This document shows, one piece after another, positions 1 through 64,000 of a DNA stretch of 64,000 nucleotides. Made by a program: the position numbers and the translations under genes. The DNA is from Cephalotus follicularis. Taxonomy: Eukaryota; Streptophyta; Magnoliopsida; Oxalidales; Cephalotaceae. The notes under the pieces are model-generated. The model was not told where the DNA came from and ran no database searches. It worked only from the letters and a program-made list of their open reading frames with translations. The stretch lies in assembly GCA_001972305.1 (NCBI GenBank), contig BDDD01002234.1, positions 117,334 through 181,333 on the forward strand. Direction: 5' to 3'. How positions within the stretch are numbered: the first letter of the stretch is position 1; each line of letters opens with the position of its first letter.

Positions 1-757
1 TTGGGCCAATTAAAATTGCTCAAAATGGCGACGCTCAGCACAAACCGTCAGCACTTTGAGGGAAACCGTCGACCCCAAATTCAAGACCATCTGCGCTTTG
101 AGAAGAACATTTCAAATTCAAACATCCAACGGACACATAAGCGGCGACGCTTTGAATGACTCCGTCTATGCTTTGCACTGCTGGGAACAATTACTAACAA
201 CATTTATAATGTGCCATCTTTGAAGGAACAAGTCCCAAGACTGAAGTAACAATTCCCAAGACAGAAATAACGAGTTCCAAGACAAAAGCAGCTATTCCCA
301 AGGTTCCAAACATTACCTCTATTAATTCAAATCAGCTAAAAACACAAGAACACAAGAAATAAAAAAGAGATCTAGATCAAACAAGCAAAGAGATTATCAA
401 GAGAAAATCCTCCACTTTCAAATCAACATCAAAGCAAGAAGAAGATCTTTTCATCTATCTGTGAGCTATTATTTTCTTGTAATCATATAGCCATATCAAA
501 CCTTTAAGAGCTTACACAAAATAAATCATCCTTGTAATCCACACTTGTAAAGGGGAGTGAATCCTAAGTGAGAAATAGGAGTGAACCCTAGTGATTGAGG
601 TCAATCACAAAAATTTGTAAGGTGCACCGAATATCCCCTGGTAAAGATATTCGAAGATTGTATTCGGGTGGAATACTAGTGGAATCTCAAGGAGGACCTT
701 GGGAAAGTGGACGTAGGCATGATCTTTGTCGAAACACTATAAATTCTTGTTTGCTTC
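1..757 (+). mobile_element. Ty1/copia (Sirevirus-like) LTR fragment
   Basis: No coding frame is present. The segment reads like the 3' half of a Sirevirus-type LTR in plus orientation: an A-rich leader (330-480), a CTTGTAATC-rich stretch (475-560), and the block GTGGACGTAGGC (709-720) followed by a CGAAACACTATAAATTCTTG stretch. From memory of the family, that block lies in the transcribed part of Sirevirus LTRs. The LTR is cut at 757, where a different LTR start (TGTAATATCCCG) begins. Positions 200-310 contain an irregular direct repeat built on TTCCCAAGACAGAAATAACG. The element's internal region is not in the window, so the lineage call rests on short-motif recognition only. Confidence 0.45.
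28..175. repeat. GTCGAC-type motif cluster (Sirevirus-like LTR)
   Basis: Four to five degenerate copies of a GGCGACGCTTTGA / CGTCGACCC type motif occur about 20-70 bp apart. They are of the GCGTCGACGCTT variant seen in gypsy LTRs further right in the window. These are the weakest and most decayed copies in the window. Confidence 0.4.
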
Positions 758-945
758 TGTAATATCCCGTTTTCCGTATGGGTTTTTTTATGCTTTTCGA
801 TTTGTTTTGTATGGGCTTTTCGATATGTTTCGTGTGGGCTGTCGATTGTTTTTCGGTTTGTGGTCTGCCCATTTTTCGGTTTGTTTTGCTTTTGGCTCGG
901 CTAAACGGGTTTTAGTCTTAGCCAGTGGGTTTTGATTTTATTTAG
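758..945 (+). mobile_element. Truncated LTR 5' end, same family as solo LTR C
   Basis: It begins TGTAATATCCCGTTTTCCGTA and stays closely similar for about 180 bp to the start of solo LTR C at 13066, including the GTTTTAGTCTTAGCCA block. Similarity stops near 945, after TTTTGATTTTAT. Because 13066 is a verified LTR terminus, 758 is probably an LTR terminus too. The rest of the element is missing, and the sequence to the right belongs to another family in opposite orientation, so a deletion or rearrangement breakpoint lies near 945. Confidence 0.6.
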
Positions 946-1725
946 TTACAAAACATTAAGAAAAACTAAAGAAAAGAAAAGGGGCGGCTGCTATTTTTTG
1001 TGTTCTACTCTGTTGCTCTTTTATATATGCAACTAAAACAAACCTAAAGCAATGCATGAAATAAAACAATTGTCCATAAATAATTTGATCAAAACCGGCA
1101 ATTAAATTTTTTCCCTTTTCTTCTTCTGCGGCGCATGACTTGCTGATGGCATGCATTGCTGGGCTTTGGCGTTGAAGACTGCATGCATGCAGATGGTGTG
1201 TATTGTAGGCTGAAGATATATGGTCTTTAGCAAATCTGATGGTGACACGTGGCGTGTGATGCATGGTCATGGCTTTGGCAATTGTATGGATTGTCTCGCA
1301 TGTATGGGCGCTTGTTGGCTGATTGTGCGCATAATTCATGCGTAAATTGCTGGAGAATACATGCATTGATAACTAATGGCATAATGGTAATATGCCATGC
1401 AATCCAAATGTATCTTTTAACTATATCTCTTCACTTGAACCTCGGAATATGTTGACCCAAGAATTAAAAGTGCACCAAATGATTTTATGAACGCAATGAA
1501 TCCAATATTTGATATGTTCCGGTAACTTCACAATGTTTCATAATTACCATTATGCCATTATCTCTTATTTTGACTCAAAAATTAGCTTCTTAGCTCTGTT
1601 TATTTCTCTTTCACTGAATTAAACCAAAAACCTGAAAATACAACAAAACATACCCGAGTAATCTGATCCAAGCATAAAAATATAACAAATAGATCATTAA
1701 AAATAACACATTTTTATGCTAAACA
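946..1725 (-). mobile_element. LTR fragment, minus orientation, family of LTR K
   Basis: Read on the minus strand from 1725, it begins TGTTTAGCATAAAAATGTG and aligns over about 100 bp with the start of LTR K at 62648, sharing the TATTTTTATGCTTGGA block and a downstream ATTTTCAGGT block. Further along (minus strand) there is a TATA-like CATATATAAAAG near 1020-1030 and a pyrimidine-rich stretch near 965-985. It abuts the RNase H remnant of element A exactly at 1725, so it inserted into A there. The far end is not recognisable. Unlike K, it has no GTCGAC cluster. Confidence 0.5.
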
Positions 1726-2100
1726 TAAGGCTTCAACTGTCTTGAAGCATAAGCTATCACATGACCATGCTGCATAAGAACACATCCCAAACCCTTCTTG
1801 GAACCATCACTGTATATCTGATATCCCCCTGACCCAGACGGTAATCGAAGAATTGGTGCTGACACCAAACCGTTCTTCAATTTCTCAAAACTTGCTTCCC
1901 TTTCTTCATTCCACACAAACTGGACTCCTTTTCTTAGAAGTTGTGTCAGTGGCAAGGCTATGGAGGAGAAGCCTTCCACAAATCGTCTATAATAGCCAGC
2001 CAGACCCAAAAAGCTCCTAACTTCCGTTACCGTAGTAGGCCTCGGCCATTTGGTAATAGCCTCAACCTTTGCAGGGTCCACACTAATACCATTGGCTGTA
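1726..2100 (-). pseudogene. RT C-terminus and RNase H remnant of gypsy element A
   Basis: This minus-strand segment encodes the end of the RT thumb/connection ([15 protein letters not shown], then [16 protein letters not shown]) and the first half of RNase H ([27 protein letters not shown]). In an intact element these copy genomic RNA into cDNA and remove the RNA strand. The frame is cut at 1725 by the inserted LTR, so the second half of RNase H and the integrase are absent. Upstream it joins directly to the protease C-terminal part near 2100, which means the RT palm with its YIDD motif has been deleted. It is non-functional. Confidence 0.85.
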
Positions 2101-2691
2101 AAAGGATATGATCGGTGTCGAGAACCCTTTGTCTCCCTTGAACCGGAAAGTCGTTCCATCGGGTAGACAAAAATCCACAATTTTATTATAACAATCCATA
2201 CGAGCACGGTGTGCTGATAGCCAATCCATCCCCAGTATAACATCAAAGTCACGGATAGGAAGATCTATTAAATCTGCATACAAAGATATGCTTGCCGTAA
2301 ACATCTCACAACTCCTATATATCAAGTCAGTATACATAGAAGTCCCAGTCGGTGTACTCGCATCGAGCATATATGACATGCAGTCAGGGGTGACATCTAA
2401 GAAAGATGTAAAACGGGCAGATATAAAAGAATTCGATGCTCCAGAATCCATCAATACTCTAGCAGAAAAGCCATATATATACAGAGTACCTCCAAAAATA
2501 GAAGTCGACTCTGGAACCTCTGTCTGGGAAAGTACAAAAACTCTACCTTTTACGATGCCCTTGCCGGTGTCCTTCCTCTGTGACGGTCCCGCCGCCGCAA
2601 CACTACTACTCCCTGGCCCAGTAGGCACTGTAGCATAACTCTTCGGACAGTCCTTCACCAAATGACCAGGGGCCCCGCACCTCAAAAACAA
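2101..2691 (-). pseudogene. Zinc knuckle and aspartic protease remnant of gypsy element A
   Basis: The minus strand encodes a CCHC knuckle (CGAPGHLVKDCPK) followed by a retropepsin-like protease with active-site LMDSGASNSF and the typical downstream block [19 protein letters not shown]. In an intact element the protease processes Gag-Pol and the knuckle binds genomic RNA. The frame is open over about 195 codons but runs straight into the RT deletion junction near 2100, after the GFSTPIISF block. The sequence is very similar to the matching part of element F (about 40500-41110), which places A and F in one family. Confidence 0.85.
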
Positions 2692-3803: not shown

Positions 3804-3807
3804 CTCT

Positions 3808-5034
3808 TGTCACGCCCCATTTTTTGAGAAGACAACATTAAAGCAATAAAGGCAATTAACATATAAATTCAGCTCATGTAAATACCCTAAAATTTAAACT
3901 TTTAAATGAGATATCGATTGCGGAAGCATTAAACTCATAAGCTGAAAACTCCTAACTTGCATCCCATACTGCACACTACTCAAACAAATCTGTCATTGTT
4001 AATAGCCCTCAAAACGGTGCGTGATCACACTACAATAGTAAATCTAATCATTAAAAAAAACCATAAGTATGGTACATTAGTAGTCCTTAAACAAAATCAG
4101 GCTTATTACAAATCAGGAGAATTAAAACCAAGAACAACGACAACATAACAACATGTTCTTCTTCCATACCAGTCCAACCGGTCCACTACATCAATCTGTA
4201 AAGTAGGGGGTTAGCCTTTGTCCTCACTCGGCTAAGTCATAAAAGTAGCTCGGGATCAATATTAAATGCATGTCATGTGATGTATGCATAAATGATGCAG
4301 TGTAGGAAATACCAGTTTATATATACATGAAAAATATATATATTTTAGCGGTACAGTAAAAATAACAGTGGGCATATATATACGAAAATATATGTATGCA
4401 AGAACAGTACAATTATAACCCGGCCAGGGCTACATCAACAAGCACAGTAATGTCCAAAAAGGACCAGCAGTACAGTATGCCAACAAATGACCACAAGAGG
4501 AGGCAGTATGTGTAACGCCGCCAACTCCTGGTCCCACGCTACACTCCTACTTCGGTCCCTACTCCAGGCAACCAAGCGAGGCAACAGTACAGTATAGTGA
4601 GTCACCCAACCAACTCCTGGCCCCTAGGTCAACCCTACCACTAGCCGGGGCTGGCAGTCTCCGCCATGCAACCAGTGGCTCTAGCACAACCACAATAAAT
4701 TCACAGAGCAAGCAGTGAATCCAAATACTAAACAGTACAGTATTGATCGTTTAGATCGACAACAGGCAGTTCATTTTCAAATATTTTGAATAACATTTCA
4801 GGAGTAGGAATACTTTTGAACAAATCAGTAGTGTAAATCGCTTTCCAGTTTTTTCAAAAATTCGTTATTAACAAATACATATTTTCATACTCAAAATAAC
4901 GCTTTCCGAGTTCACATATGCATTTCTAAATATCATAACTTTAGAAATCATAAACGATTTACAAACAGTAAGCAAACAGGCAGTAAACAGTGTATATGCA
5001 ATGCATACAAATGCTCAAATGCACCAAAACAGGA
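3808..5034 (-). mobile_element. 5' LTR of element A, part 1 (split by element B)
   Basis: On the plus strand it begins TGTCACGCCCC next to the PBS; on the minus strand that is the LTR end GGGGCGTGACA. It shares all its blocks with the solo LTR at 21453-24204 and with LTR J: an AAACTTTTAAA stretch, the conserved module at 4210-4229, an (AT)n-rich part near 4310-4400, and the CCAACTCCTGG blocks. The LTR resumes at 17790 after element B. A 5-bp duplication, CAGGA at 5030-5034 and AAGGA at 17790-17794 (one mismatch), marks B's insertion. Confidence 0.9.
4210..4229 (-). promoter_or_regulatory. Conserved LTR module (A)
   Basis: Minus-strand GAGTGAGGACAAAGGCTAAC, followed by a run of C. It is 402 nt from the PBS-side LTR end. 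The same 20-mer recurs in other LTR families here. The function is unknown. Confidence 0.6.
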
Positions 5035-5416
5035 TGTCACACCCCGCTTGCATTAACAACACATCAATTTAATAGATATCCTGCTTATACAGAGAATGAT
5101 AAAATTTAAAACTTTTAAACAGACATCATCTGGTGGAAGCACATATGTATATAAGCTGAAACGAACGGAAACATGCGTCCCATACCGCATGATCCACACA
5201 AAACCTCATCATAACAAGTTAAAAGCCCACAAACGGAGCATGATCCAAAGTTAATACAACAACAATAGCAAAACATTAGTACATAAACCAAAGTACAACA
5301 TGTTCGCTACATTGCTTAACAAAGCACTTAAAACATAAAACTCCGACACATCACTGTCCAGCACCACCGTGCTCGGCGACATCCCAAAACGCAGCATCAA
5401 TCTGCAACAGTAGGGG

Positions 5417-5436
5417 GTTAGCCTTTGTCCTCACTC
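5417..5436 (-). promoter_or_regulatory. Conserved LTR module (B, left LTR)
   Basis: Exact minus-strand copy of GAGTGAGGACAAAGGCTAAC, 382 nt from the TGTGACA end of the LTR. The flanking sequence differs from family A while the core is identical. Confidence 0.6.
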
Positions 5437-6125: not shown

Positions 6126-6450
6126 AGGCCCCCAACAGTCAGCTGCCCACCACTGGCAGTCGACTGTCCCCCTCAAAGTAGTCGGCTGCCAGTCCCAGGC
6201 AGTCGGCTACATGACCAGGCAGTCGGATGTCTACATAGACAGTCGGCTGTCCACTCTCGACAGTCGGCTGGCCCTCAGGACAGTCGGCTGTCCACACCCC
6301 CACAGTCAGCTGTCGACCTACGACAGTCGACTACACAACCCCTGGAGACATATCCTGGACACGAACGTGGGCAGTCGACTGTCCTCCCTAGGACAGTCGG
6401 CTGGACCCCTAGGCAGCCGACTGCCCAGGGTGGGAAGTCGGTTGGATTCT
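6126..6450. repeat. AGTCGACT/AGTCGGCT motif cluster (B left LTR, cluster 1)
   Basis: About 14 copies of CAGTCGACTG or variants (CAGTCGGCTG, CAGTCAGCTG) occur in about 320 bp, with spacers of 8-40 bp that are unrelated to each other. It is not a regular tandem repeat; only the decamer recurs. The same cluster is present in the right LTR at 16695-16995. Confidence 0.85.
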
Positions 6451-6969: not shown

Positions 6970-7110
6970 CATGGCAGTCGACTGCCTTGGATTGGCAGTC
7001 GGCTGTTTCTGCCGACACTCCTACCAGCCGGCTGCCTCCTCTTGGTAGCTGGCTGCCACGCCTCAGCAAGCGTCCAGTCGGCTGCCTCCCTGTGGCAGTC
7101 GGCTGCCCCT
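6970..7110. repeat. AGTCGACT/AGTCGGCT motif cluster (B left LTR, cluster 2)
   Basis: Six to seven further copies (GCAGTCGACTGCC, GCAGTCGGCTG, CAGCCGGCTGCC and variants), on the U3 side of the putative leader. The matching copy in the right LTR is at 17515-17650. Confidence 0.8.
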
Positions 7111-11993: not shown

Positions 11994-11997
11994 CTGC

Positions 11998-16694: not shown

Positions 16695-16995
16695 CCAACA
16701 GTCGGTTGCCCACCACTGGCAGTCGACTGTCCCCCTCAAAGTAGTCGGCTGCCAGTCCCATGCAGTCGGCTACATGACCAGGCAGTCCGCTGTCTACATA
16801 GACAGTCGGCTATCCACTCTCAACAGTCGGCTGGCCCTCAGGACAGTCGGCTGTCCACACCCCCACAGTCGACTGTCAACCTACGACAGTCGACTACACA
16901 ACCCCTGCCGACATATCCTGGACACGAACGTGGGCAATCGACTGTCCTCCCTAGGACAGTCGGCTGGACCCCTAGGCAGTCGGCTGGATTCTACA
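16695..16995. repeat. AGTCGACT/AGTCGGCT motif cluster (B right LTR, cluster 1)
   Basis: About 13 copies, homologous to the cluster at 6126-6450. A stretch of about 20 bp with one copy, present on the left, is missing near 16980. Confidence 0.85.
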
Positions 16996-17514: not shown

Positions 17515-17650
17515 GGCAGTCGACTGCCTTGGCCTTGCAGTCGGCTATTTCTGCCGACACTCCCACCAGCCGGCTGCCTCCTCTTGGCAGCTGGCTTCCA
17601 CGCCTAAGCAAGGGTCCATTCGGCTGCCTCCCTGTGGCAGTCGGCTGCCC
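17515..17650. repeat. AGTCGACT/AGTCGGCT motif cluster (B right LTR, cluster 2)
   Basis: Six copies, homologous to 6970-7110. Confidence 0.8.
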
Positions 17651-17839: not shown

Positions 17840-18180
17840 CCTAGGACGTCGATGTCTATTAAAAGGCATCGATGTCTTTGTCCATCAACGTCGATGTCCA
17901 AGTCCTTAGTGTCCGCGCTTTATACTGTTCAAACACGTTGATGGCCATTTTATACGCGTCGACGCTCAAACTCCAAAACCTTTAAACGTCAGTGTATTTC
18001 TCACGGCCTTGACACATTAAGGTAGTAACCTTAGGCATCGACGCCTAATACATCAAAACCCAAGCAGATAGCCTAAGGCGTCAATGTTTTTCCAAAGACG
18101 TCGATCTGTTTCACGTCAGTAACCAAGCAAATAACCCAAAGACGTCAAGGTTCTTAAAAGGCGTTGACATTTTTCAAGTA
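17840..18180. repeat. GTCGAC motif cluster (A LTR, cluster 1)
   Basis: About 13 degenerate copies of (A/G)(G/A)GACGTCGATGTCTTT and GGCGTCGACGC-type motifs in 340 bp. Spacer sequences are unrelated to each other. Confidence 0.75.
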
Positions 18181-18899: not shown

Positions 18900-19080
18900 T
18901 AACATTCGATGTTACGCATCAACGTCTTGTTCCAAGACGTCTATGTCTTTCCCCTTTTACATGAGGGCATCGATGTCCTCGCCTGCATCATCGTGCATGT
19001 GCATGCAGTTACATGCGCCCCTTTGCTTTAAGGGCGTCGATGTGTTTAGAAAGGCGTCGACGCGTTCACTAAAAAACATC
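18900..19080. repeat. GTCGAC motif cluster (A LTR, cluster 2)
   Basis: About six copies (CAACGTCTTGTTCC, GACGTCTATGTC, GGGCGTCGATGTG, AAGGCGTCGACGCG), on the far side of the candidate leader from cluster 1. Confidence 0.7.
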
Positions 19081-22785: not shown

Positions 22786-23115
22786 GACGTCGATGTCTAT
22801 CCATAAGGCGTCGATGTCTTTTCCAATAGGCGTCGATGGCCAGGTCCTTAAGGTCAGCGCGTTCTGCAGAGAAGGCGTCGATGTCCAATCCGTACACGTC
22901 GACGTTCAAGGTCTGGAACCCTAAAACGATAGCGTATTGTTGATGGCGTCGACGCGTTAAGGTAGGAACCTTAGGCGTCGACGTATAATACGTCAAAACC
23001 CAGGCAGGTAGCCTAAGGCGTCGATGTCTTTCCATAGACGTCGATCCCTTTCAAATAGTAACAAGGCAAAACTCAAAAGACGTCGATGTTCATTAAAAGA
23101 CGTCGATGTCTATCT
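22786..23115. repeat. GTCGAC motif cluster (solo LTR, cluster 1)
   Basis: Eleven copies in 330 bp, among them AAAGACGTCGATGTCTAT, AAGGCGTCGATGTCTTTT, GGCGTCGACGTAT and GGCGTCGACGCG. The copies resemble one another; the spacers do not. Confidence 0.9.
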
Positions 23116-23869: not shown

Positions 23870-24040
23870 TTAAAGCGTCGACGTCTTTCCAAAGACGTCG
23901 ATGTCATTCATTAGGTTACACGAGAACATCGATGTCCTCCTCTGGATCGATGTGCATGTGCATGCAGCTACGTGCGCCCTCTTGCCACAAAGGCGTCAAC
24001 GTGATTCTAAAGGCGTCGACGTGTTTCTCCCAGAACAACG
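23870..24040. repeat. GTCGAC motif cluster (solo LTR, cluster 2)
   Basis: Five copies (AAGCGTCGACGTCTTT, AAAGACGTCGATGTC, AACATCGATGTCC, GGCGTCAACGTG, GGCGTCGACGTG), beyond the leader region. Confidence 0.85.
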
Positions 24041-24714: not shown

Positions 24715-24870
24715 TATTAGTCGACTAATTGTGAAATTAGTTGACTAATTATGGAAATTTTGGCATATTAGTCCACTAATTATTAAATTAGTTAACCAAG
24801 TTCTTAATTCTGGTTTGCAGATCTGAGCAACTTAGTCGACTTATTATGAAATCAGTCGACTAGTTTCACC
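24715..24870. repeat. TTAGTCGACTAA motif cluster (D LTR)
   Basis: Six copies of TTAGTCGACTAATT or variants (TTAGTTGACTAATT, TTAGTCCACTAATT, CAGTCGACTAGTTT), two to three of them paired about 15 bp apart. It is the same GTCGAC centre as in other families but with TTA/TAA flanks, so the palindrome arms are family-specific. Confidence 0.8.
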
Positions 24871-28234: not shown

Positions 28235-30378
28235 TGTTAGATATAGTGACCCGACAAGCCATTAGATGGATTGTCATATTATATCTTACCATGCATGGAA
28301 CAATCTTTTTCCTTATATATGATGCGTGCTAAATTTTTTACGGTAATATCACTTGTATTTTATCACATAATTGAAGTAGTTAAGTACCTACTTATACTAG
28401 TGATGCCCTGACATAAGGTTGGATGCCTGGCAAGGAGGCTGTGAGACTGGTTACCTTGTTCCTTATGTCAAACTTGTTCCAAGTCATAGGTTCACTTTGT
28501 GGGCATTAGTGAACCGGATAGACTTGCGCGTATGTTGCCTGCTCATGGAATCGGGGGATGGATTCTCTGACTACCATGTATGTTGGACACTAGGGCAAAT
28601 ACGGGGTGCGCACTGGGAGCGTATACACTGAATAGGACCCGCGTAGGAGACACTATTTTGATAGTCGCTATTCTCGTGTCAGTAGTGACTCCTGCTTGTG
28701 GCGCTTGTGTATAAGTGATTATCACTTAGCGAGTTTTTTAACTCGTCTGATCCTTAGACCTGAGCAACTACTCTATATTGTATGGAGACGGTTATGATTT
28801 GATCTCCACCTTACCCAGTCCTTACGCAGGGCTGGGAATTGGGTGGTCTATGGGTATGATCGAATCTATACGAATATAAGTGAGTGCGCAATAAGGGATT
28901 GTCGCCCCTGAGCGAAGGTGGTCGGCCCTATTATGGTGTGATTATACTTTAGATTTATGAAATCCTTGGCCAAGGTTGAGGTAGACTGAAAATTAGATTT
29001 CCGGAGAGTTTACCAAAGGTCCAGGTAATGATCAGATATTTTAGCCATTGAGGTACTATCTAGGGTTGACACATATCCATACCCTAGACCTCAATCGGGA
29101 CCAAGTATGACAAGGGATTATAGTACACGCGAACCGACGACTTAGAAAATATGGGTTATTGAGGTGTGGGAAAATTAATTAGATTAATTTTTCCATATGG
29201 ATAATATTTGGATATTATTCCAATAGCAATAAAATTGGTCGAGGACCATTTAGAATGGCTAAACCGGACCCGAGGGGTATTTCGGTCATTTATGAACACC
29301 TCTCTAATAACCAAGATTTTAAAGGGTCACTGCCTTATAATGATTATATCTTTAATATGTTGGACATATTAAGTCTTGGTGTCAAATATCGGTTGTGTGG
29401 ATTTTGCATTTTGTGGAAACACATATGCTTGATCTTACTTAACCAATATTCGAAGGGTACATGAGATCACTAAAAGAGTTAGACACTTAATGCTTCACTG
29501 ACCAGAAGGAGTCGATGTCTTTTAGAAAGACGTCGATGCTTAACTCTTGGAAAGACGCTGATGTCTTTTAGAAAGCGTCGATGTCTTTAGTGCCACATTG
29601 CATAGGCGTCGACGTCCTTTGGAAGGCGTCGACGTCTTTGAGCAGAACGTGCTGCCTGTGCACGAGCTCACTTCGTGGGAACGTTTTCTCTCTCATTTCC
29701 AGCAACCATCTCCTGTTCTTGCACGTTTTAGAAACGTGGGAATCGTGGCTTTGGACTCCCAGGGAGTGAAGGCCATGATCCTTAGTGAATGGGAGATTGG
29801 GAGAGAGAATTGTAGGCTAGTTATAAGCATTTCTGCAGAAAATGCCAAAATGAGGTTAAGGCATTTTTGCTGGGCAAGAGCTCGAATTTCTCTGCAGATT
29901 GTGTGTTCCTTTCATTTGTGATACACCAAGCAAGAGCTTGTCTAGGGTGGATTGATCATTGACTTCATTGGTCAATATCAATTTACCTTTTCCAAGCTAA
30001 GTGAGAGAAAGTGAGAGTTCAAGCACTTGATCATTGCTGGTTGGATTGCTCGTTGTTCCTGAGACTTGGAGAACATCAAAGGGGAACCTACTCAAGCTTG
30101 TAGCAGCAAAGAAAGAAGGATCCTTCACCCGCTGGTATAAATTCTTGGTCCTTCTTCCTTATGCCATGCTTGTGTGTCACCATTGGTTGCAATGGTGACA
30201 CCAATTCAATTCTGTTGATGTTGTGGTGAACCATGTGGTCTGTGGACGTGCCATAATGGATTGGTTTCGTTATATATGGTGTTATTCCGCTGCCATGATT
30301 GTACGTTTAAAGTTTTAGTCTACACCCTTACACCCTTTGTCCATTTTGGCACCGAACTCAGTATATCCGATTCCAACA
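28235..30378 (+). mobile_element. 5' LTR of element E
   Basis: 2144 bp. It carries a GTCGAC cluster (29505-29645) and TATA-like TATAAA at 30136-30141 after a purine-rich stretch. The 3' LTR lacks about 456 bp present here (about 28278-28733). Confidence 0.93.
29505..29645. repeat. GTCGAC motif cluster (E 5' LTR)
   Basis: Six copies: AGTCGATGTCTTTT, AAGACGTCGATGC, AAGACGCTGATGTC, AAGCGTCGATGTCTTT, GGCGTCGACGTCC and GGCGTCGACGTCTTT. The copies and order match those of the 3' LTR at 36470-36615. This is a copia element, unrelated to the gypsy families with the same motif. Confidence 0.88.
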
Positions 30379-31846
30379 ATGGTATCAGAGCGTCCCACAT
30401 CATCCTTAATTGAATATGTATGCCTTAGACGATGTACTGATTAATAGTTTAATCAATGGATGTGTTTTGTGATCAAACAGCATGAAATTGGATTTCATTG
30501 TGTTTTTGTGCTGCGAATGTTGTTTTAATTTGTTTAGAATTATGTTTGGAACATGCATAGTGCATTTTGGAATGCCAGAATGGTATACCAAAGTCTAAAC
30601 CATTGATTTCTGTATTTTTTGAAATGCAGAAACTGCCCAGGGGGCTATAGACGTCGACGTCCTTGGTAGACATCGATGTCATGTTCAAATTCCCAAGAAA
30701 GACGTCGGCGTTCTTGATAGACGTCGATGTCTTGTTCATCTTTTCCAGAAAACGCGTGTATGTTCTTGCTGGACGTCGACGCTTTTTTCAACTGTTCTTG
30801 AGAAATGCATTGATGCTCTATTTTTGCATCGATGCTTTATGTTTTTTCAGAAAACACGTCGATGCCTTTTGAAAGGCGTCGACGTCTTTTATAAAAAAAT
30901 GAAGCAAACTGGTTTTGATAAAATTGGATTTTATACATTTTGGCACTTGGAGAATTAAAAATCATTGCTTGATTTAGTGGGAGTTTGATCAATTAACAAT
31001 CATTGAATTAAATTTTGTAATTGGTTATCATTTATGACATTTGTTTTATTTGTGGTTATATTATATTGGATATAATATAGATCTTATGCACAATGGATGG
31101 CCCGAAAAGGACTTTGACCTAGTTTATGGTTTTCTTTGTGTGGATGGATTTGTTTATTTATTATCTTTAAAGGTCTGTAATAAGGTGTCTGCATGCACCA
31201 TTTATTTATCCTTACTTTTGTAATTTCTCCTTGTAATTTTTTAAAATGTAATTTTCTTTTCGAAAATTTATTGTTCCTTTTGTAAAAGATGACTTTGCAA
31301 GGAGAGATGGAGGAAATGAGATATGGAGTACAAGACTTTTCAAGGCCATGTATGCATGGTTATTGTTGTAATAAATAGATTTAAATCTTTACACCTAGGA
31401 AGACCTTGTAATGACTTTGGGCTCAAGTCATTGCATATAATGTACCTTGCCAAGATCCATTGACATATTTTAGAAATATGTCCAAGGTGCATAAGGTACT
31501 CGTCTTGCATGCTAAGCCTTAATTAATTGGAATTGGCTAATACAACCAATGAATTAATTAATGGCTCGGTAATCAAAACTTGAGACCGCAAATTCCCTCA
31601 ATGCAATAATAAATCTTAACGTAGGAACCCATGGAGTGGTTCCCCGTGGCCTTCCACAATTTTCGTTGAGTAGTGTTCCTGGGTTGTTGGTTTGTCATGC
31701 CCTAGCTGAGGCTAATGACTTGGGGATATTATGTCAACGTCGGTGTTGGGAACCGCAAAGGGTGGCTATGTTTTAGCACTTGGACACGCCTACGTGTGGG
31801 TGTTAAAACTTGACTCAACTTATATTTCCTTATCTAGGTTGCTAGT
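30379..31846 (+). other. Untranslated leader of element E with PBS and GTCGAC cluster
   Basis: The PBS TGGTATCAGAGC is at 30380-30391, an exact 12-nt match. The next 1.45 kb lacks a credible frame. It includes a cluster of GTCGAC motifs (30650-30895) and AT-rich DNA. The gag ATG is at 31847. The leader should be present in genomic RNA, so the motif is not restricted to LTRs in this element. Confidence 0.8.
30650..30895. repeat. GTCGAC motif cluster (E leader)
   Basis: Nine to ten copies, for example AGACGTCGACGTCC, AGACATCGATGTC, AGACGTCGGCG, AGACGTCGATGTC, GGACGTCGACGC, TGCATCGATGC, ACACGTCGATGCC and GGCGTCGACGTCTTTT. Confidence 0.88.
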
Positions 31847-35690: not shown

Positions 35691-37017
35691 ATGGATTGTC
35701 ATATTATATCTTACCATGGATCCTTAGACCTGAGCGACTACTCTATATTGTATGGAGACGTTATGCTTTGATCTCCACCTTACCCAGTCCTTACGCAGGG
35801 CTGGCAATCGGGTGGTCTTTGGGTATGATCGAATCTATACGAATATAAGCGAGTGCATAATAAGGGATTGTCACACCTGAGCGAAGGTGATCGGCCCTAT
35901 TATGCTGTGATTATACTTTGGACTTATGAAATCCTTGGCCAAGGTTGAGGTAGACTGGAAATTAGATTTCCGGAGAGTTTACTAAAGGTCCTTGTAATGA
36001 TCAGATATTTTAGCCATTGAGGTACTATCTAGGGTTGACACATATCCTTACCCTATACCTCATTCGGGGCCAAGTATGACAAGGGATTGTAGTACACGCG
36101 AACAGACGACTTAGCAAATCTGGATTATTGAGGAGTGGGAAAATTAATTAGATTAATTTTTCCATATGGATAATATTTGGATATTATTCCAATAGCATTT
36201 AAATTGGTCGAGGACCATTTAGAATGGCTAAACCGGACCCGAGGGGTATTTCGGTAATTTATGAACACCTCTCTGATAACCAAGATTTTAAAGGGTCCCT
36301 GCCTTATAATGATTAGATCTTTAATATGTTGGACATATTAAGTCTTGGTGTCAAATCTCGGTTGTGTGGATTTTGCATTTTGTGGAAACACATATGCTTG
36401 ATCTTACTTAACCAATATTCGAAGGGTACATGAGATCACTAAAAGAGTTAGACTCTTAATGCTTCACTGGCCAGAAGGCGTCGATGTCTTTTAGAAAGAC
36501 GTTGATGCTTAACTCTTGGAAAGACGTCGATGTCTTTTAGAAAGCGTCGATGTCTTTAGTGCCACATTGCATAGGCGTCGACGTCCTTTGTAAGGCGTCA
36601 ACGTCTTTGAGTAGAACGTGCTGCCTGTGCACGAGCTCACTTCGTGGGCACATTTTCTCTCTCTTTTCCAGCAACCATCTACTGTTCTTGGACGTTTTAG
36701 AAATGTGGGAATCATGGTTTCGGACTCCCAGGGAGTGAAGGCCATGATCCTTAGTGAATGGGAGATTGGGAGAGAGAATTGTAGGCTAGTTATAAGCATT
36801 TCTGCAGAAAATGCCAAAATGAGGTTAAGGCATTTTTGCTGGGCAAGAGCTCGAATTTCTCTACAGATTGTGTTTTCCTTTCATTTGTGATACACAAAGC
36901 AAGAGCTTGTCTAGGGTGGATTGATCATTGACTTCATTGGTCAATATCAATTTACCTTTTCCAAGCTAAGTGAGAGAAAGAGAGAGTTCAAGCACTTGAT
37001 CATTGCTGGTCGGATTG
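35660..37017 (+). mobile_element. 3' LTR of element E, part 1
   Basis: Begins TGTTAGATATAG. Compared with the 5' LTR it lacks about 456 bp at the junction near 35718 (TTACCATG joined to GATCCTTAGACC). It is interrupted at 37018 by element F with TSD GATTG and ends with the short part 2. Confidence 0.92.
36470..36615. repeat. GTCGAC motif cluster (E 3' LTR)
   Basis: Six copies matching those of the 5' LTR, with a few transitions (for example GGCGTCAACGTC against GGCGTCGACGTC). Confidence 0.85.
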
Positions 37018-37184: not shown

Positions 37185-37330
37185 GAAAAAGACATCGACG
37201 TCTTTTGGAAAGACGTCGACTCCTTGAAGAGCCAGGGCACACGTGAAGAAAGGGACATGCACGTCGACATGGAGAGAAGGCATCGACACCTTCTTGCTAA
37301 AAGGAGAAAAGACGTCGACACCTTTGGTGC
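37185..37330. repeat. GTCGAC motif cluster (F 5' LTR, cluster 1)
   Basis: Six copies: AGACATCGACGTCTTTT, AAAGACGTCGACTCC, CACGTCGACATGG, GGCATCGACACC, AAGACGTCGACACC and a weak one. Confidence 0.85.
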
Positions 37331-38069
37331 GAATGGACAACACGTTCTTCATCGGCAGAATAACGTGCAAGGAGAATTGTTTAAAGGCTACCTAACGCCT
37401 TTTCTAGTGCATATTGACGTGTTGTGCATGTCTGTGTATTGCCAGGGATGCCCAGAACATGTCCTCACATGGAACATGCAAGGAATCATGCCATCCTAAC
37501 ATGCCACCTGCAAAAGAAAAGAAAAGAGAACAAAAAGAAATGCAGAAAGAGAGATAGTGGGAGAGATTTCGGGAGCGGCTGTTAGATGACAAAATAAGTG
37601 TGTTAGGTGGGAGGTATCTGCATAAAAATAACCCTCCCCACCTATCTCTCTCATTTTATAACACCAGAAGAGAGAGAGAGAATTGGACAGTGTGTATTCC
37701 TCCATTGTTGAGTTTCTTGGAGCCTGGAGCTTGGAATCGCTGGTGCAGCTTCGGGACGGACCTTGAGAGGCTGCTGTGACCTGTTTGGATACTAAAAGAG
37801 GTGGACTTTCTGGTTCCTAACTTGGAACAACAAGGTAGGGGAAAGTGATGAGTTTATATGTGCATTTTGAGTTTTAAGTTAATGTATAGCATGGTGAATT
37901 GCATGTTGATGATTGGATTGAGATTCTGGACTTGTTGAAGTGTTACTGTGATGCACTGAGATTATTATGCATGTATAGCTACATGAATACGAGTGTTGTT
38001 GGTGTTATGGAATGATTCAGGAATGGCTTGGTGTGTTGAAATTGTGTAAAACCCGTTCTAGGTTGCAAA

Positions 38070-38460
38070 GACATCGATGTCTTTTGTAAAGACATCGACG
38101 CCTTTTCTGGGAATTTGTATGAACTGTGATGATTACTTCAGATGGCCATTTTAGCCACTTGGAATTACCTGTTTGGTTTCGGATTGATGCTATGGTTGTG
38201 TTACTATTAACCAATAGCATGTCTTGCACATTTATATAGTGGGATACGTTTATATAAAGGATTAAAAGGTTGAGTTTTAGCCTCTTGAATCAAGGTTCGC
38301 AACTGATACTTTCTGGTATGAAAAAGACATCGACGTCTTTGTAAAAGACGTCGACGTCTTTTGTACGAATACACCTGGAAATGCTTGTATATAGGTTGGA
38401 CGCTTTAGGCAGAAAGACATTGATGCCTTTGGAAATGACATCGACGTCTTTCCTCCTGGA
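38070..38460. repeat. GTCGAC motif cluster (F 5' LTR, cluster 2)
   Basis: Copies occur in three pairs (38078-38106, 38326-38362, 38416-38455). They include a perfect 20-bp palindrome AAAAGACGTCGACGTCTTTT at 38343-38362. Pair members are about 25-35 bp apart. Confidence 0.9.
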
Positions 38461-41804: not shown

Positions 41805-41965
41805 AGGCATCGACGTCTTTTGGAAAGACGTCGACTCCTTTAAGAGCCAGGGCACACGTGAAGAAAGGGACATGCACGTCGACATGGAGAGAAGGAATCG
41901 ACACCTTCTTGCTAAAAGGAGAAAAGACAACGACGTCTAAAGAAAGACGTCGATGCCTTTGGTGC
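41805..41965. repeat. GTCGAC motif cluster (F 3' LTR, cluster 1)
   Basis: Seven copies, one or two more than the 5' LTR: a GACAACGACGTC / AAGACGTCGATGCC pair near 41932-41960 corresponds to a single copy in the 5' LTR. Confidence 0.85.
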
Positions 41966-42699
41966 GAATGGACAGCACGTTCTTCATCGGCAGAATAACG
42001 TGCAAGGAGAATTGTTTAAAGGCTACCTAACGCCTTTTCTAGTGCATATTGACGTGTTGTGCATGTCTGTGTATTGCCAGGGATGCCAAGAACATGTCCT
42101 CACATGGAACATGCAAGGAATCATGCCATCCTAACATGCCACCTGCAAAAGAAAAGAAAAGAGAACAAAAAGAAATGCAGAAAGAGAGATAGTGGGAGAG
42201 ATTTTGAGAGCGGCTGTTAGATGAGAAAATAAGTGTGTTAGGTGGGAGGTATGTGCATAAAAATAACCCTCCCCATCTATCTCTCTTGTTTTATAACACC
42301 AGAAGAGAGAGAGAGAATTGGACAGTGTGTATTCCTCCATTGTTGAGTTTCTTGGAGCCTGGAGCTTGGAATCGCTGGTGCAGCTTCGGGACGGACCTTG
42401 AGAGGCTGTTGTGACCTGTTTGGATACTAAAAGAGGTGGACTTTCTGGTTCCTAACTTGGAACAACAAGGTAGGGGAAAGTGATGAGTTTATATGTGCAT
42501 TTTGAGTTTTAAGTTAATGTATAGCATGGTGAATTGCATGTTGATGATTGGATTGAGATTCTGGACTTGTTGAAGTGTTACTGTGATGCACTGAGATTAT
42601 TATGCATGTATAGCTACATGAATACGAGTGTTGTTGGTGTTATGGAATGATTCAGGAATGGCTTGGTGTGTTGAAATTGTGTAAAACCCGTTCTGGGTT

Positions 42700-43090
42700 G
42701 CAAAGACATCGATGTCTTTTGTAAAGACATCGACGCCTTTTCTGGGAATTTGTATGAACTGTGATGATTACTTCAGATGGCCATTTTAGCCACTTGGAAT
42801 TACCTGTTTGGTTTCGGATTGATGCTATGGTTGTGTTACTATTAACCAGTATCATGTCTTGCACATTTATATAGTGGGATACGTTTATATAAAGGATTAA
42901 AAGGTTGAGTTTTAGCCTCTTGAATCAAGGCTCGCAACTGATACTATATGGTATGAAAAAGACATCGACGTCTTTGTAAAAGACGTCGACGTCTTTTGTA
43001 CGAATACACCTGGAAATGCTTGTATATAGGTTGGACGCTTTAGGCAGAAAGACATCGATGCCTTTGGAAATGACATCGCCGTCTTTCCTC
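42700..43090. repeat. GTCGAC motif cluster (F 3' LTR, cluster 2)
   Basis: Homologous to 38070-38460, including the perfect 20-bp palindrome at 42978-42997. Confidence 0.9.
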
Positions 43091-57547: not shown

Positions 57548-57690
57548 GACGCAAACCGCCGACGCTTAGTATCTGAGCGCCGACGCTTTGTGTTGTTTTA
57601 TGCCTTAGTCGGTCGACCCCCTTGTTCGACGCTTAGTCCCTTTTGCTATTAGATAGTCGACGCTTAGAAACAAACGGTCGACGCTTTAAG
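57548..57690. repeat. GTCGAC motif cluster (I, cluster 3)
   Basis: Five copies: CCGCCGACGCTTAG, GCGCCGACGCTTTG, GGTCGACCC, TAGTCGACGCTTAG, CGGTCGACGCTTTAAG. Confidence 0.8.
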
Positions 57691-58364: not shown

Positions 58365-58640
58365 TACTAAACGCAGAGCGGAAGTAACTGGGTTACTAAA
58401 CACAGAGTGGAAGTAACCGGGTGCTAAACACAGAGTGGAAGCATCTCTGGAGTGACTGATTGATTGTTGTGGCGGTTGCTAAACACAAAGTGGAAGTGAC
58501 CGGGTGCTAAACACAGAGTGGAAGCATCTCTGGAGTGACTGATTGATTGTTGTGGCGGTTACTAAACGCAGAGCGGAAGTAACCGGGTTGCTAAACACAG
58601 AGTGGAAGTGACCGGGTGCTAAACACAGAGTGGAAGCATC
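58365..58640 (+). repeat. Minisatellite of 27-28 bp units in LTR I with higher-order pattern
   Basis: Eight units of the type CTAAACACAGAGTGGAAGTG(ACCGGGTG), some followed by a CATCTCTGGAGTGACTGATTGATTGTTGTGGCGG spacer (in two parts). Unit-spacer blocks of about 100 bp recur twice, giving a two-level repeat. It probably expanded within this LTR. Confidence 0.88.
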
Positions 58641-58964
58641 CCCGTATAGAGTGTTGTCCGTGGTGACATGATTGATTGACCGTATTGATTTGTTTGTCCG
58701 TTGTGACATGTCTTATATGATTGTTGGCCCGTTGAGGCATAACTGATGGTTTGTTCGGTCCTTCGAGGACATGATTGTGACTGGTCCGCTGAGGACATGA
58801 CCGTGATTGTGTTTGGGTAGCCCTAACGGGTTGCACATATACTGTGAATATGCATATATAGATACATATATGTATATACTGTTATATATATACCGTACTG
58901 CATCACTGTGCATTCATACATTACATGCATTATCATTGAAACCGAACTGTGTTTATACTTAGCC

Positions 58965-58984
58965 GAGTGAGGACAAAGGCTAAC
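58965..58984 (+). promoter_or_regulatory. Conserved LTR module (I)
   Basis: GAGTGAGGACAAAGGCTAAC, 353 nt before the LTR end. Confidence 0.6.
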
Positions 58985-59337
58985 CCCCTACAATTTCAGG
59001 TTGATGCAGCGGTTCTTTACCGTTCAGCTCCGTGGAGCCAATGGAGTTTTATGCTGTTTTTACCTTTGAGAAATGTTAATGGATCATTGTAATAAATGAA
59101 TCGATGTATTGATGTATATTGTTCACGCTCCGTTTGAGGGCAGTTAACTTTGATGATGTTTATTGTTGTAGCATGTAGTATGGGATGCATGTTACGTTAT
59201 AATTCGGCTTATATTTAAATGCTTCCGCAAGTTGTTAATGGATATGAAAAGTTTTAAATTTATGGTAAATTGCATAAGCCGGATTTATATGTTGATTGCC
59301 ACCACTTTTATTGTTGTTATGGGAACGGGGTGTGACA

Positions 59338-60582
59338 ACTCCACCATATGATTGACTTCTCACATGACGTTTTTATCGTTGGTTATTCAAAAATCTTTTG
59401 AGTATTCTCGTTTGAACTTTCATATTGATATGGGACCCTTGTGATCATAAATTCATTTTGCCTTTTGATGTCGTATCCGCATTGGATTCTGCGGACATAT
59501 ATTGTTTCTATTGCTACTGTTATAATCATTCTAGCTCCGTATCATCATGTTTGAGTTTTGTTGTTGGGTATGTACCCTTTTGTGGCTCTATTATGAAATG
59601 GCTATTGAGGGCCGGATTTGTTGATTTGGATTGGTTTTCGTATTGTTATACATGAGCCTTGTTATTGATACCGTCGAGAAATTCATTATTTGAGAGTCCT
59701 GTTGTTTTCATATGTGGCATGTTTTCTTGTGCTATATGATCTTGGTTGGGATTTGTATTTTGTTTGACTTTTGTTGATATATTCATTGGTTTGTGATATG
59801 ATTCCGAGTGGGTTTATGCTTGATGTTCTGGGTGACTTGGTCACCTTCTCACACTTGTGACATTGTGACGTGTTATATTGTTATACTGTGTTATATTATG
59901 ATGCTGGGTACCGGGATTTCTGATATGTATTACCGGTCAATGGTGAGGGTACGTTCGACGATCAACTCTCCTCAGTGCTATTGTCTACGATGGTATGCTG
60001 AGTGTGAGTGCAGTAGACGCTCTGTCCCTCGTCCATTTGACCGTATTGGCTATGTGATTCCGATGAGGGCAGATCCGTGAAATAACGACGTCCCCTCGGT
60101 CGATGTTGTGATATATGTGGTTCCAACGAGGGCAGATCTGTGAAATAATGATGTCCCCTCAGTCGATGTTGTGATATATGTGATTCCGACGAGGGCAAAT
60201 CCTTGTGGTACACGACGTCCCCTCGGTCGAGGTTCAGATATGTGGTTCCGACGAGGGCAGATCCGTGAAATATCGACGTCCCCTCGGTCGATGTTAAGAT
60301 ATATGTGGTTCCGACGAGGGCAGATCCGTTAAATAACGACGTCTCATCGGTCCATGTTGTGAGATATGTGATTTCGACGGGGGCAGTTCCGTGAAATAAC
60401 GATGTCCCCTCGGTCGATATTGTGATATATGTGATTCCGACGAGGGCAGATCTGTGAAATAACGACGTCCCCTCGGTCAAGGTTCATATATGTATATTAT
60501 TGTTGCAGTGGTTGTATTATGACCCCATGGGATTTGGCGGTATATGATATAACGCCATGTGATTTGGCGGCAGGTATGAGAC
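59338..60582 (+). mobile_element. 3' LTR of element H, part 2
   Basis: Continues from the TSD copy ACTCC, collinear with about 49425-50355 of the 5' LTR but with about 60 bp lost near 59975 and the 62-bp unit expanded (60055-60485). Ends at GTATGAGAC, where LTR J inserts. Confidence 0.85.
60055..60485 (+). repeat. Tandem repeat, seven copies of a 62-63 bp unit in H's 3' LTR
   Basis: Each unit reads GTGATTCCGACGAGGGCAGA, TCCGTGAAATAACGACGTCC, CCTCGGTCGATGTTGTGATA, TAT with few changes. Unit starts are near 60055, 60118, 60181, 60243, 60305, 60368 and 60430. The 5' LTR has one unit at about 50205-50267, so the expansion happened after insertion of H. Confidence 0.93.
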
Positions 60583-61894: not shown

Positions 61895-62090
61895 TCTAAA
61901 GCATCGGCGTTTATTCCTTAGGCATCGATGCTTATATCCCTTAAGCGTCGACGTTCAGTCCCATAGCGTCAGCGCTTTCAGTGTCTAGGCGTCGATATCT
62001 CCTCCCTTTAGACGTTGACGTTTTAACACATTTCAACATATAAAACGCAGTTCACAGAAATAAGCGTCGACGCTTACCAAAGGCATCGAC
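61895..62090. repeat. GTCGAC motif cluster (J)
   Basis: Eight copies of the GGCATCGATGCTT, AAGCGTCGACGTTC, GGCGTCGATATC, AAGCGTCGACGCTTACC types. Compared with the solo LTR of the same family the copies tend to end in GCTT rather than GTCTTT, so the motif arms differ between subfamilies. Confidence 0.8.
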
Positions 62091-62854
62091 GGTTTCATGC
62101 AGCAGTCTTCTTCTTCCTCTCAACATGACCAAACAGTAATAATTCCTTCATTGTAACATGCAATCCTACATGTATACATCCCAGAAGATCGACATGCAAC
62201 ATCATATGACACATCCAGTACAAGGTAGCATCATTTCAGTGACTAAAAAAGGATCATCAAGCTATGAAATTCATGCATAAACATCACTGAACATACACCA
62301 AGTATTGAACACAAAATACAATTATGGCTTCCCCTACCTCTGGCCTCAAGTTAGAAGCCAAAAGTCCACATCTTTTAGTGTCCAACCAATCACTTGGATC
62401 TCCCAGCTATGGCTTGAAGTTCCCTGGTTCATCCCGGCAGTTGGTGTGCAAGCTCCAAGCTTCCTTTGCTCAACAATGGTGGTCTCTCTCTCTCTCTCTT
62501 TCACTCTCTTTGTCACTCACAGTGTCACTAATCCCTCTGGCTTTTAGTAACATATGAGAGGGGGTGAGAGGAGTCAACTTTTATGCAGATTTCTTTTTGT
62601 TTTCTCTGCATGTCCTCCTGCTTTCTTCTCCTCTCCCACTTAGGCAATGTTTAGCATAAAATTGTGTTGTTTTTAATGCATTATTTGTGATATTTTTATG
62701 CTTGGAATAGACTACTTTGGTTGTGTTTTAATGATTTTCAGGTACAAGTGTTTAATCACCAAAGTGCAAGAATACTACCCAAAAGTGTGCAAAATTGGAG
62801 TTTAAATGAGTAAAGATTGAAGAAATGCTAAATTCTGCAGAAAACAGGGCAAAG

Positions 62855-63250
62855 AAGTCGACGTCTTTCAAGAAGAAGTCGACGTCTTTTCTGGGTTTCA
62901 TCAAAAGCATCGATGTTTTTCATACAAGTCAATGTCTTTTCTGGGTTGGATAAATCACGTCGACGTTTTTAGGAAAGAAGTCGACGTCTTTTCTGGGCAA
63001 CACAACAATCTTCAAAGGAGCTATGAAAAAGAAGTAGATGTCTTTTCACAAAGGAGTCGACGCTTTTCATGAAGACCGACGTCTTTCACACAAAACATCG
63101 ATGTCTTTATGCCAAATTTTCCTGTAACTTTTTATTAAAAGACGTCGATGCCTTCCAAGAAGAAGTCGACGCCTTTCACTCGCATTTCAGTAAATTCGCG
63201 ATTTTTACACAAAGAAGTCAACGCCTTTCAAAAGAAGTCGACGCCTTCCT
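62855..63250. repeat. GTCGAC motif cluster (K)
   Basis: About 15 copies, mostly AAGAAGTCGACGTCTTT or AAGAAGTCGACGCCTTTC, often as pairs 15-25 bp apart. Some variants (AAGCATCGATG, AAGTCAATGTC, AAGACCGACGTC). Absent from the related LTR at 946-1725. Confidence 0.9.
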
Positions 63251-63562
63251 CTGCAGCAGAAATAGAAAGTTCAGATTTTTGCCATATTCTGTAACTAGAA
63301 TTACTTTTATTCCATTTTTGATCAACTTAGTAGTATATAAACAATGCTATGGCTGGCCAAATCAGTGTGTAATATGTAATTAGAGTAGATTAGAGTAGTA
63401 GAGAGGGTGGTAGAAACCCTAATTTTCCTTCTCTCCTTAGTTTTGTTTTATTATGCTTAGTAGCTAGTTTTTCAAGGTTTTGGGTTAGAACAAAGCCTAG
63501 ATTGTTATTGTTTCAATTCCATCAATAAAAAACCCTTGAATATTTTATTTGTTCTTCAAAAT

Positions 63563-63976
63563 TTCTGCCTTCGCACACACTTTGTTTGTCTGATTAAAAT
63601 CCACTCATATTGTCGGTGAAGCTGAAGGTTGGTGAATAAATGGAGCTCAATTCAACGGAGTCTACTCATACGATTTGTCGCAACGAACACACTTCGTATA
63701 GAACTAGCATGACTACTCATACGTCTTGTCTGATTAAAATCCACACTTCGTATAGACCTAGCATGACTNTTCTGCCTTCGCACACACTTTGTTTGTCTGA
63801 TTAAAATCCACACTCATCTTGTCGGTGAAGCTGAAAGTTGGTGAATAAATGGAGCTTAATTCAACGGAGTCTACTCATACGATTTGTCGCAACGAACACA
63901 CTTCGTATAGAACTAGCATGACTACTCATACGTCTTGTCTGATTAAAATCCACACTTCGTATAGACCTAGCATGAC
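63563..63976 (+). repeat. Two tandem copies of a 207-bp unit, with an undetermined base at the joint
   Basis: The first copy is 63563-63769 and the second starts at 63770 with the same TTCTGCCTTCGCACACAC. They differ only by about four bases and a 2-bp indel. The base at 63769 is n. Within each unit there is a smaller repeat of about 51-54 bp ending CTAGCATGACT. It is either a real duplication or an assembly joint. Confidence 0.9.
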
Positions 63977-64000
63977 TACTCATACGTCTTGTCATCACCG

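Follow-up and report, generated by a model that had tools for sequence, protein, structure and literature searches.

Palindrome clusters and the elements that carry them

The window, that is, the whole 64,000-nt stretch of DNA that was analysed, holds LTR elements of the Ty3/gypsy (A, B and D, by Pfam) and Ty1/copia (E) superfamilies and further LTRs, including G (54851-59337), interpreted as a solo LTR of gypsy type, 4.49 kb long, and it carries clusters of short palindromes centred on GTCGAC or its variants (Table 1). Clustered core sites number 17 in the B 3'LTR, 16 in F, 11 in D and 9 in A, and those of copia E come to 5 in the LTR and to 13 only when the leader is counted. The last clustered site lies at ~49-59% of LTR length in A, F, J, B, D and E and at ~63% in G; TATAWAW matches follow it by ~500-800 bp in F, J, B and E, where the distal clusters are upstream of them, and in A and D they lie nearer or between clusters. 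Turnover of clusters is seen in the gypsy J LTR.

Table 1. Clusters of GTCGAC-type palindromes in the window
Cluster	Position	Strand	Remarks
Gypsy B 3'LTR, distal	6159..6442	-	12 core sites, arms ~GGCAGTCGACTGCC
Gypsy B 3'LTR, proximal	6977..7103	-	5 sites, 146-272 bp from LTR 5' end
Gypsy B 5'LTR, distal	16701..16984	-	13 sites; LTR interrupted by element C
Gypsy B 5'LTR, proximal	17519..17645	-	4 sites
Gypsy A LTR, distal	17848..18105	-	6 sites
Gypsy A LTR, proximal	18969..19061	-	3 sites
Gypsy F LTR, distal	22789..23107	-	11 sites, many with 20-22 bp steps
Gypsy F LTR, proximal	23877..24020	-	5 sites
Array I	24716..24864	no strand	six copies ~ATTAGTCGACTAAT, picked by hand out of nine scan matches; steps 20, 31, 20, 44, 20 bp
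Copia E 5'LTR (28748-30379)	29511..29633	+	5 sites, arms ~AAAGACGTCGAYGTCTTT
Copia E leader	30653..30883	+	8 sites, between primer binding site and gag
Copia E 3'LTR	36480..36582	+	4 core sites
Gypsy D 5'LTR (37019-39424), proximal	37194..37356	+	6 core-type sites
Gypsy D 5'LTR, distal	38073..38445	+	5 sites; perfect 18-bp palindrome at 38344-38361
Gypsy D 3'LTR (41633-44374), proximal	41809..41991	+	6 core-type sites
Gypsy D 3'LTR, distal	42708..43059	+	
G	56252-56402, 56655-56814, 57558-57682	+	motif ~AAACNGTCGACGCTTTG
Gypsy J LTR, distal	61903..62193	-	7 sites
Gypsy J LTR, proximal	62857..63242	-	11 sites, some without counterpart position in A, F or D

The palindromes are far more frequent than dinucleotide composition predicts, as an earlier note on this DNA had supposed. 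The window contains 58 copies of GTCGAC, where 200 dinucleotide shuffles of it give 7.5 on average (sd 2.7, maximum 18), and dinucleotide shuffles give 7.6 for GACGTC (51 seen) and 46.9 for RTCGAY (145 seen); all others among the 64 six-base palindromes reach at most ~4-fold, TATATA and ATATAT coming next. Most of the GTCGAC copies (51/58) lie inside LTRs A, B, D, E, F, G or J or the copia E leader. Tested region by region with 300 shuffles each, GTCGAC is in excess (p 0.003 to 0.03) in LTRs A, F, J and G, in both LTRs of B and of D, in the copia E 5'LTR and leader, and in the region holding array I (24205-28747), with gag/pol at background (0, 0, 1 and 1 copies in four regions, p 0.22 to 1); the copia E 3'LTR gives p=0.12 for GTCGAC and p=0.037 for RTCGAY. 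A point against strict specificity is that RTCGAY is also elevated in 44709-48178, a region without element assignment (5 versus 1.6, p=0.02). Dyad symmetry extends beyond the core, near-perfect 14-bp palindromes being in excess in all eight site-bearing regions (p 0.01 to 0.04) and, at the 0.05 level, in none of 11 others, with a TCGA centre listed for only 28 of the 93 and others AT-rich. The family consensuses agree with the earlier description of arms that differ by family and stay roughly palindromic.

These arrays represent fewer independent cases than the “at least eight unrelated families” first proposed, a count that is wrong because LTR homology (BLAST) joins A, F, J, D, B and G into one Ty3/gypsy lineage, within which gypsy B and D are also kin by their internal regions (~2 kb at 70%). 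The independent cases are two sure lineages, Ty3/gypsy and copia E, plus one short array (I), and, since the gypsy-lineage LTRs are homologous, the clusters there are partly inherited. Array I is itself borne out, but it sits in non-coding DNA without element assignment and its status as an LTR is unproven. Two other supposed members were dropped: the LTR at 1-757, termed Sirevirus-like in the earlier note and entered there with a cluster at 28-175, has a single GTCGAC (p=0.07), no palindrome excess and no BLAST match to the other LTRs, and LTR K has zero GTCGAC, no RTCGAY excess (p=0.22) and only a 63-bp tandem repeat containing GACGTC. LTRs C and H do lack the motif. By eye, loose GACGCTTT words in the 1-757 LTR look like G.

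A palindrome common to two superfamilies, and its spacing

One 18-bp palindrome, ~AAAGACRTCGAYGTCTTT, is common to copia E and gypsy A/F/J/D, in a data base of one window and one copia element, with comparisons within A/F/J/D not independent of each other. The sharing is limited to the palindrome: BLAST matches between E and A/F/J/D (E<=0.01, word size 7) sit at palindromes alone and all vanish once 22 bp per site are masked, no other similarity between them being found by BLAST, so that a single homologous insertion or satellite does not account for the clusters. The arms of E match those of AFJ and of D in both directions (p=0.0002, the floor) and do not match those of gypsy B (p 0.63 and 0.82), which has the same core with other arms and gives no BLAST match to copia E even unmasked. 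A search by arms alone (at least 9/12 bases) returned 54 matches against a permuted-arm mean of 7.2 (maximum 31), 38 of them with an exact TCGA centre; at 8/12 there were 99 against a null mean of 51 (maximum 99), 43 with TCGA. For B, D and E, one LTR per element entered the consensus, arm, spacer, BLAST, arm-search and spacing analyses, and site-level counts (consensus, arm mismatches) cover only sites with a neighbour within 60 bp. The idea that a sequence-level property has been kept in both Ty1/copia and Ty3/gypsy is thereby supported, through E and A/F/J/D, though not its repeated acquisition in eight families.

The sites also have a preferred step of ~21 bp. In clusters of at least three sites (distances >12 bp), 40 of 84 intervals measure 19-22 bp, where random placement in the same spans predicts 11.2, and the step reaches significance separately in gypsy AFJ, gypsy B, copia E, G and array I as hand-picked, six of nine scan matches (p 0.001 to 0.024), with 2/5 in gypsy D (p=0.14); it accompanies different arm types. 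Over successive distances of 13-80 bp, the range used also for spacer likeness, no helical period past the 21-bp peak is significant (p ~0.2 at 10.5 bp; 0.47 by simulation), and phasing beyond 21 bp was dropped.

With a third LTR used to define the sites, the cores show higher identity than the remaining LTR sequence in 10/12 comparisons, and the central CpG is kept in 93/169 cases versus 192/549 for CpGs away from sites; arm conservation across A/F/J/D is not consistently above the rest of the LTR.

Relation to known palindromes and host-factor sites

The nearest precedent is the repeated motif (RM) boxes of Sireviruses, which passages of Bousios et al. (2010, PMC2829016) call Sirevirus-specific and absent from classic Ty1/copia elements. 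Like the arrays here, these are many short palindromes that cluster in the LTR and resemble each other within an element, with arms that vary round a core and extra copies outside the LTR, and two of the consensuses given in those passages, Vitis CGGTCGACCG and Tnd-1 ACAATCGATTGT, hold a core seen here. RM boxes sit in the upper half of the LTR with a TATA box a short way downstream; the sites here keep roughly, not strictly, to the upstream half, and the TATAWAW matches lie at the distances given above. The at least eight clustered palindromic copies per element that define RM boxes are present, in copia E only with the leader; however, whereas the RM core is described there as CGG-CCG except in Tnd-1, the family consensuses here are built round an RTCGAY-type core, and a CGG-CCG dyad was not seen in them. 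The arrays differ further in lying mainly in a Ty3/gypsy lineage, with one 18-mer common to both superfamilies, and copia E lacks beside its 3'LTR the polypurine tract AGGGGGAG that marks Sireviruses 10 bp before the 3'LTR: the window has exact copies only at 19455 (+) and 55348 (-), away from the copia E 3'LTR at 35719. Rows of palindromes were known from Sireviruses; the titles and abstract openings listed from the open-access literature on LTR palindromes describe no single one as common to Ty1/copia and Ty3/gypsy LTRs.

Host-factor sites in LTRs are exemplified, in an excerpt of PMC12786077, by the heat-responsive element of ONSEN and the W-boxes of EVADE. The present arrays would likewise be candidates for elements exploiting host transcription factor sites, but unlike those they have up to 13 sites per cluster, commonly in 21-bp steps. 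The core overlaps (G/a)(C/t)CGAC, the motif of DREB/CBF (Xue 2002, by its title as cited in PMC9862540); since DREB/CBF needs at least one intact half site, ATCGAT should be depleted, yet the 38 arm-found TCGA sites comprise 15 GTCGAC, 15 ATCGAC, 4 GTCGAT and 4 ATCGAT, the last against ~4 expected by independence (small numbers), and this half-site model was rejected. As insertion targets, palindromes are only slightly preferred according to an excerpt of PMC6911290.

Candidate binding-site arrays and competing explanations

The earlier note offered a binding site, a structured RNA or local amplification, and the first fits best. We give even odds to the view that the clusters, which lie in the upstream portion of the LTR and in the copia E leader, are arrays of cis-regulatory sites to which a protein binds. 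Each site would consist of palindromic DNA, up to 18 bp long and built on an RTCGAY core, neighbours lying mostly about two helical turns (21 bp) apart. From these sequence patterns we infer a reader that is a protein, encoded by the host, binding as a dimer and assembling cooperatively on one face of the DNA, at best guess an activator whose sites would serve the elements as an enhancer; that one plant has the same site in both a Ty3/gypsy lineage and a Ty1/copia element would most likely reflect convergence on one host factor rather than transfer, gypsy B and array I presenting other arms round the same core. More specifically, and tentatively, a single host DNA-binding protein may read the 18-bp site at two-turn spacing and have been captured independently by the two lineages, in which case the change of arms around an unvarying TCGA core in gypsy B and array I would indicate that elements had escaped members of that protein family or moved from one to another. 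The differing arms of B and D are a point against a one-protein model.

Transfer of the array, in which template switching or gene conversion would have carried it from a gypsy LTR to the lineage of copia E or the other way, with spacers diverging afterwards and sites perhaps still functional, appears unlikely. It would account for the 18 bp, arms included, common to E and gypsy A/F/J/D with arms not shared by gypsy B, and for one E-leader to J match that covers 67 bp and three sites at nearly equal steps, and a short array would leave little trace after spacer decay. Yet no E to A/F/J/D match survives masking, the core asymmetry is opposite (ATCGAC:GTCGAT 20:5 in gypsy A/F/J/D and 0:5 in copia E; small numbers), which makes same-strand transfer unlikely, and the presence of arrays in both E LTRs and the leader means that the array did not simply come from the nested D copy nearby.

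Local amplification clearly contributes to the arrays, as family-specific arms and the consistent orientation within gypsy A/F/J/D suggest, but alone it does not explain the same palindrome in copia or the same step with different arms. A wholly neutral origin by slippage or short tandem duplication, the shared core being chance plus homology, is improbable. Short tandem arrays are present in TRF output, there is the turnover in J, and adjacent-copy spacers are more alike than distant-copy ones in 4/8 sequences, clearly in F and G, so that some block duplication is likely; in the other four they are no more alike, and conservation is higher in the core than in the remaining LTR sequence (10/12 comparisons, as above) despite the CpG that the core contains.

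We give little credence to RNA hairpins, in which copies fold with a UCGA loop or pair with each other and feed small-RNA silencing or serve to package the RNA, a proposal made for the palindromes of maize Sireviruses (2016 work, via excerpts of PMC5311732 and PMC10760457), which are also clustered in LTRs, have predicted secondary structure and are small-RNA hotspots: although 6 of 21 site windows (200 nt, at least three sites), located in E, the E leader, F, J and G, have far more stable folds than 20 shuffled versions of each (z -4.1 to -6.9), folding is uneven (z +1.3 to -6.9), E windows without sites also average -3.0, and the distal clusters of F, J, B and E precede TATA matches. Arm mismatches carry no RNA-strand bias, 66 being G/T and 74 A/C (p=0.55) and, in the 42 best-paired sites, 14 G:U versus 24 A:C; this lack of G:U excess favours DNA over RNA, and a pure sense-RNA hairpin was dropped on this ground.

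Palindromic LTR repeats had previously been described as a Sirevirus trait of unproven purpose. One palindrome carried by two superfamilies between which nothing else was found to be similar supplies a concrete 18-mer as bait for a host factor, and B versus D, with the same core and different arms, offers a comparison separating binding from ancestry; if such a factor exists, unrelated transposons would be tied to one control switch.

In databases, tblastn confirmed no relatives of the gypsy B protein in viral_contigs or genome_contigs and none of the copia E protein in viral_contigs. The 18-mer occurs in viral_contigs at 7 loci, with one site each and 0-6 GTCGAC apiece in 4-15 kb, which are treated as chance. 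The gypsy B protein has 13 matches, the best 42% identical over 56% of the query, and the copia E protein is 57-70% identical to the matches listed (120 of 6096), those named being mostly from plants.

Retroelements and palindromes in the window

The window (64 kb, GC 0.416, one N) holds nested LTR elements, delimited by self-comparison and boundary inspection, with gypsy D nested inside the 3′LTR of copia E. Pfam typing covers A, B and D (gypsy-type gag and/or protease, with RT, RNase H and integrase additionally in B) and E (copia gag, integrase and RVT_2), while F, J and G are assigned by LTR homology. H, the host of the G insertion, has homologous uninterrupted sequence near 49424. Amid retroelement remains, 53352-53455 (plus strand) gives an Rfam 5S rRNA match (41.3 bits; gathering 38), possibly a Cassandra-type 5S-bearing element. 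At 63563-63977, two 208-bp copies (97.6% identity) flank the sole N, which suggests a gap in the assembly whose ends have been duplicated.

Coordinates of the LTR elements
Feature	Position	Strand	Remarks
Gypsy A LTRs	3807-5034 + 17791-19256	minus	B splits A; self-comparison, boundaries
Gypsy F LTR	21452-24204	minus	self-comparison, boundaries
Gypsy J LTR	60583 to about 63300	minus	outer end approximate; self-comparison, boundaries
Gypsy B LTRs	5036-7248; 11998-13065 + 16561-17789	minus	C splits latter
Gypsy B internal region	7249-11997	minus	
Gypsy D LTRs	37019-39424; 41633-44374	plus	
Copia E LTRs	28748-30379; 35719-37018 + 44375-44708	plus	
G, 4.49 kb	54851-59337		read as gypsy-type solo LTR; target duplication ACTCC

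The comparison with a dinucleotide-shuffled null proposed in the earlier note, run on the window with 200 shuffles, gave 58 GTCGAC against 7.5 expected, together with 51 GACGTC against 7.6 and 145 RTCGAY against 46.9. Counting both LTRs of B, D and E, 51 of the 58 GTCGAC fall within LTRs A, B, D, E, F, G, J or the E leader (between primer binding site and gag); the 1-757 LTR has one, 24205-28747, with the short non-coding palindrome array I, three, and the A internal region, the D internal region and 44709-48178 one each. The last region, outside assigned elements, has raised RTCGAY (5 vs 1.6, p=0.02) and its GTCGAC at 47405. There are 33 near-perfect 18-bp palindromes, whereas five Markov resamplings gave 5-13; 22 of the 33 are TCGA-centred in a list read by eye that counts both LTRs per element. 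Palindromes of 14 bp are in excess in all eight site-bearing regions tested (p 0.01-0.04) and reach 0.05 in none of 11 other regions (two at 0.07); because just 28 of 93 in the site-bearing regions are listed as TCGA-centred, counting the four commonest centres per region, this excess comes partly from AT-rich palindromes. LTR K carries, at 60051-60478, not a palindrome array but a 63-bp tandem repeat (6.8 copies), the likely source of its GACGTC excess. CpG observed/expected is 1.25-1.29 at 13066-16560 and 54851-58358, about twice that of gag/pol regions (0.53-0.69).

Kinship of the LTRs and sharing of the palindrome

In BLAST comparisons (word size 7, E<=0.01) with and without site masking, homology connects the LTRs of A, F, J, D, B and G and persists after masking (for example D-G, 177 bp, 80%; B-F, 57 bp, 93%); direct B-D LTR matches are weak (E 0.001-0.003), and B and D match internally over about 2 kb. 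These six thus form one lineage, whose clusters may therefore be inherited in part, and the "at least eight unrelated LTR families" of the earlier note cannot stand. In an alignment of A, F, J and D, the proximal clusters match in position (about 60-450 bp), as do the distal ones (about 1050-1430 bp); the clusters of B lie at 146-272 and 807-1090 bp. Copia E matches A, F, J and D at palindromes only, and masking 22 bp per site removes every such match; E and B gave no match at these settings, masked or unmasked, and one 26-bp E-G match (E=0.002) survives masking.

The consensus is about AAAGACATCGACGCCTTT in A/F/D, AAAGACGTCGACGTCTTT in J, AAAGACGTCGATGTCTTT in E, AAACNGTCGACGCTTTG in G, GGCAGYCGACTGCC in B and ATTAGTCGACTAAT in array I. 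Profiles of the arms (the flanks of the core) are common to AFJ, D and E (p=0.0002, the lowest value that 5000 permutations allow) and partially shared by G (p 0.0006 to 0.15); by the same permutation test, B does not share them (p 0.3 to 0.9). The two arms of one site pair better than arms combined across sites in AFD (0.61 vs 0.50), J (0.54 vs 0.49), B (0.52 vs 0.45) and G (0.38 vs 0.31), no better in E (0.51 vs 0.54) and equally in array I (two sites); these are raw differences, and the composition null is 0.29. An arms-only scan at 9/12 finds TCGA in 38 of 54 matches and an A just before the centre in 29 of 54, a pattern that stronger decay of the flanking CpG than of the central CpG would give, though A could be the plain family consensus base; at 8/12 the scan is not clear of its null (99 matches; null mean 51, maximum 99).

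Clustered LTR palindromes as such are already known. The closest match, in the portions of the literature covered, is the RM boxes of Sireviruses, described from a comparison of Ty1/copia elements and termed Sirevirus-specific (PMC2829016); no exact Sirevirus polypurine word lies at the 3′LTR of copia E. The maize Sirevirus palindrome is reported to occur in Helitrons too (PMC10760457). An 18-mer common to Ty3/gypsy and Ty1/copia, with B as a same-lineage counter-example, as seen in this one window, was not found described in the parts of the open-access LTR-palindrome literature consulted.

Conservation, spacing and symmetry of the sites

Conservation was scored as the identity between two LTRs at sites taken from a third. 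On this measure the core is more conserved than the remaining LTR sequence in 10 of 12 comparisons, the two exceptions both taking their sites from D; the arms give no consistent gain in the same 12. CpG is retained in 93/169 central positions, 89/185 near sites and 192/549 elsewhere. The conservation effect is modest and comes from overlapping comparisons.

Intervals of 19-22 bp make up 40 of 84, against 11.2 expected from random placement in the same spans and including six hand-picked sites of array I; a recount with other cut-offs and array I left out gave 39 of 83. This spacing is not significant in gypsy D on its own, and no helical period beyond the 21-bp peak is significant. Adjacent units are more alike than distant ones in their four-base spacers in four of eight sequences (2-9 pairs each), with F (0.39, 0.29) and G (0.45, 0.25) as the clear cases, and in their arms in all eight, where the distant set contains chance sites. 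Asymmetric cores run 20 to 5 in one orientation within gypsy A/F/J/D (p=0.004; sequences not independent) and 0 to 5, the reverse, in copia E. Because of these spacing, likeness and orientation data, we read the arrays as having grown partly via local copying, with selection on core and step retaining them. Tandem arrays with the same 21-bp step lie at 16047-16139 (element C) and 222-302 (the 1-757 LTR), two elements in which no palindrome excess was found.

Mismatched arm pairs are G/T in 66 cases and A/C in 74 (p=0.55), near-equal as expected if symmetry is maintained in double-stranded DNA. The ratio varies by sequence, and the opposite leanings of D (1 to 13) and the E LTR (11 to 3) are put down to fixed consensus asymmetry. 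Strong RNA folding is seen in 6 of 21 site windows, so an additional role in silencing is possible.
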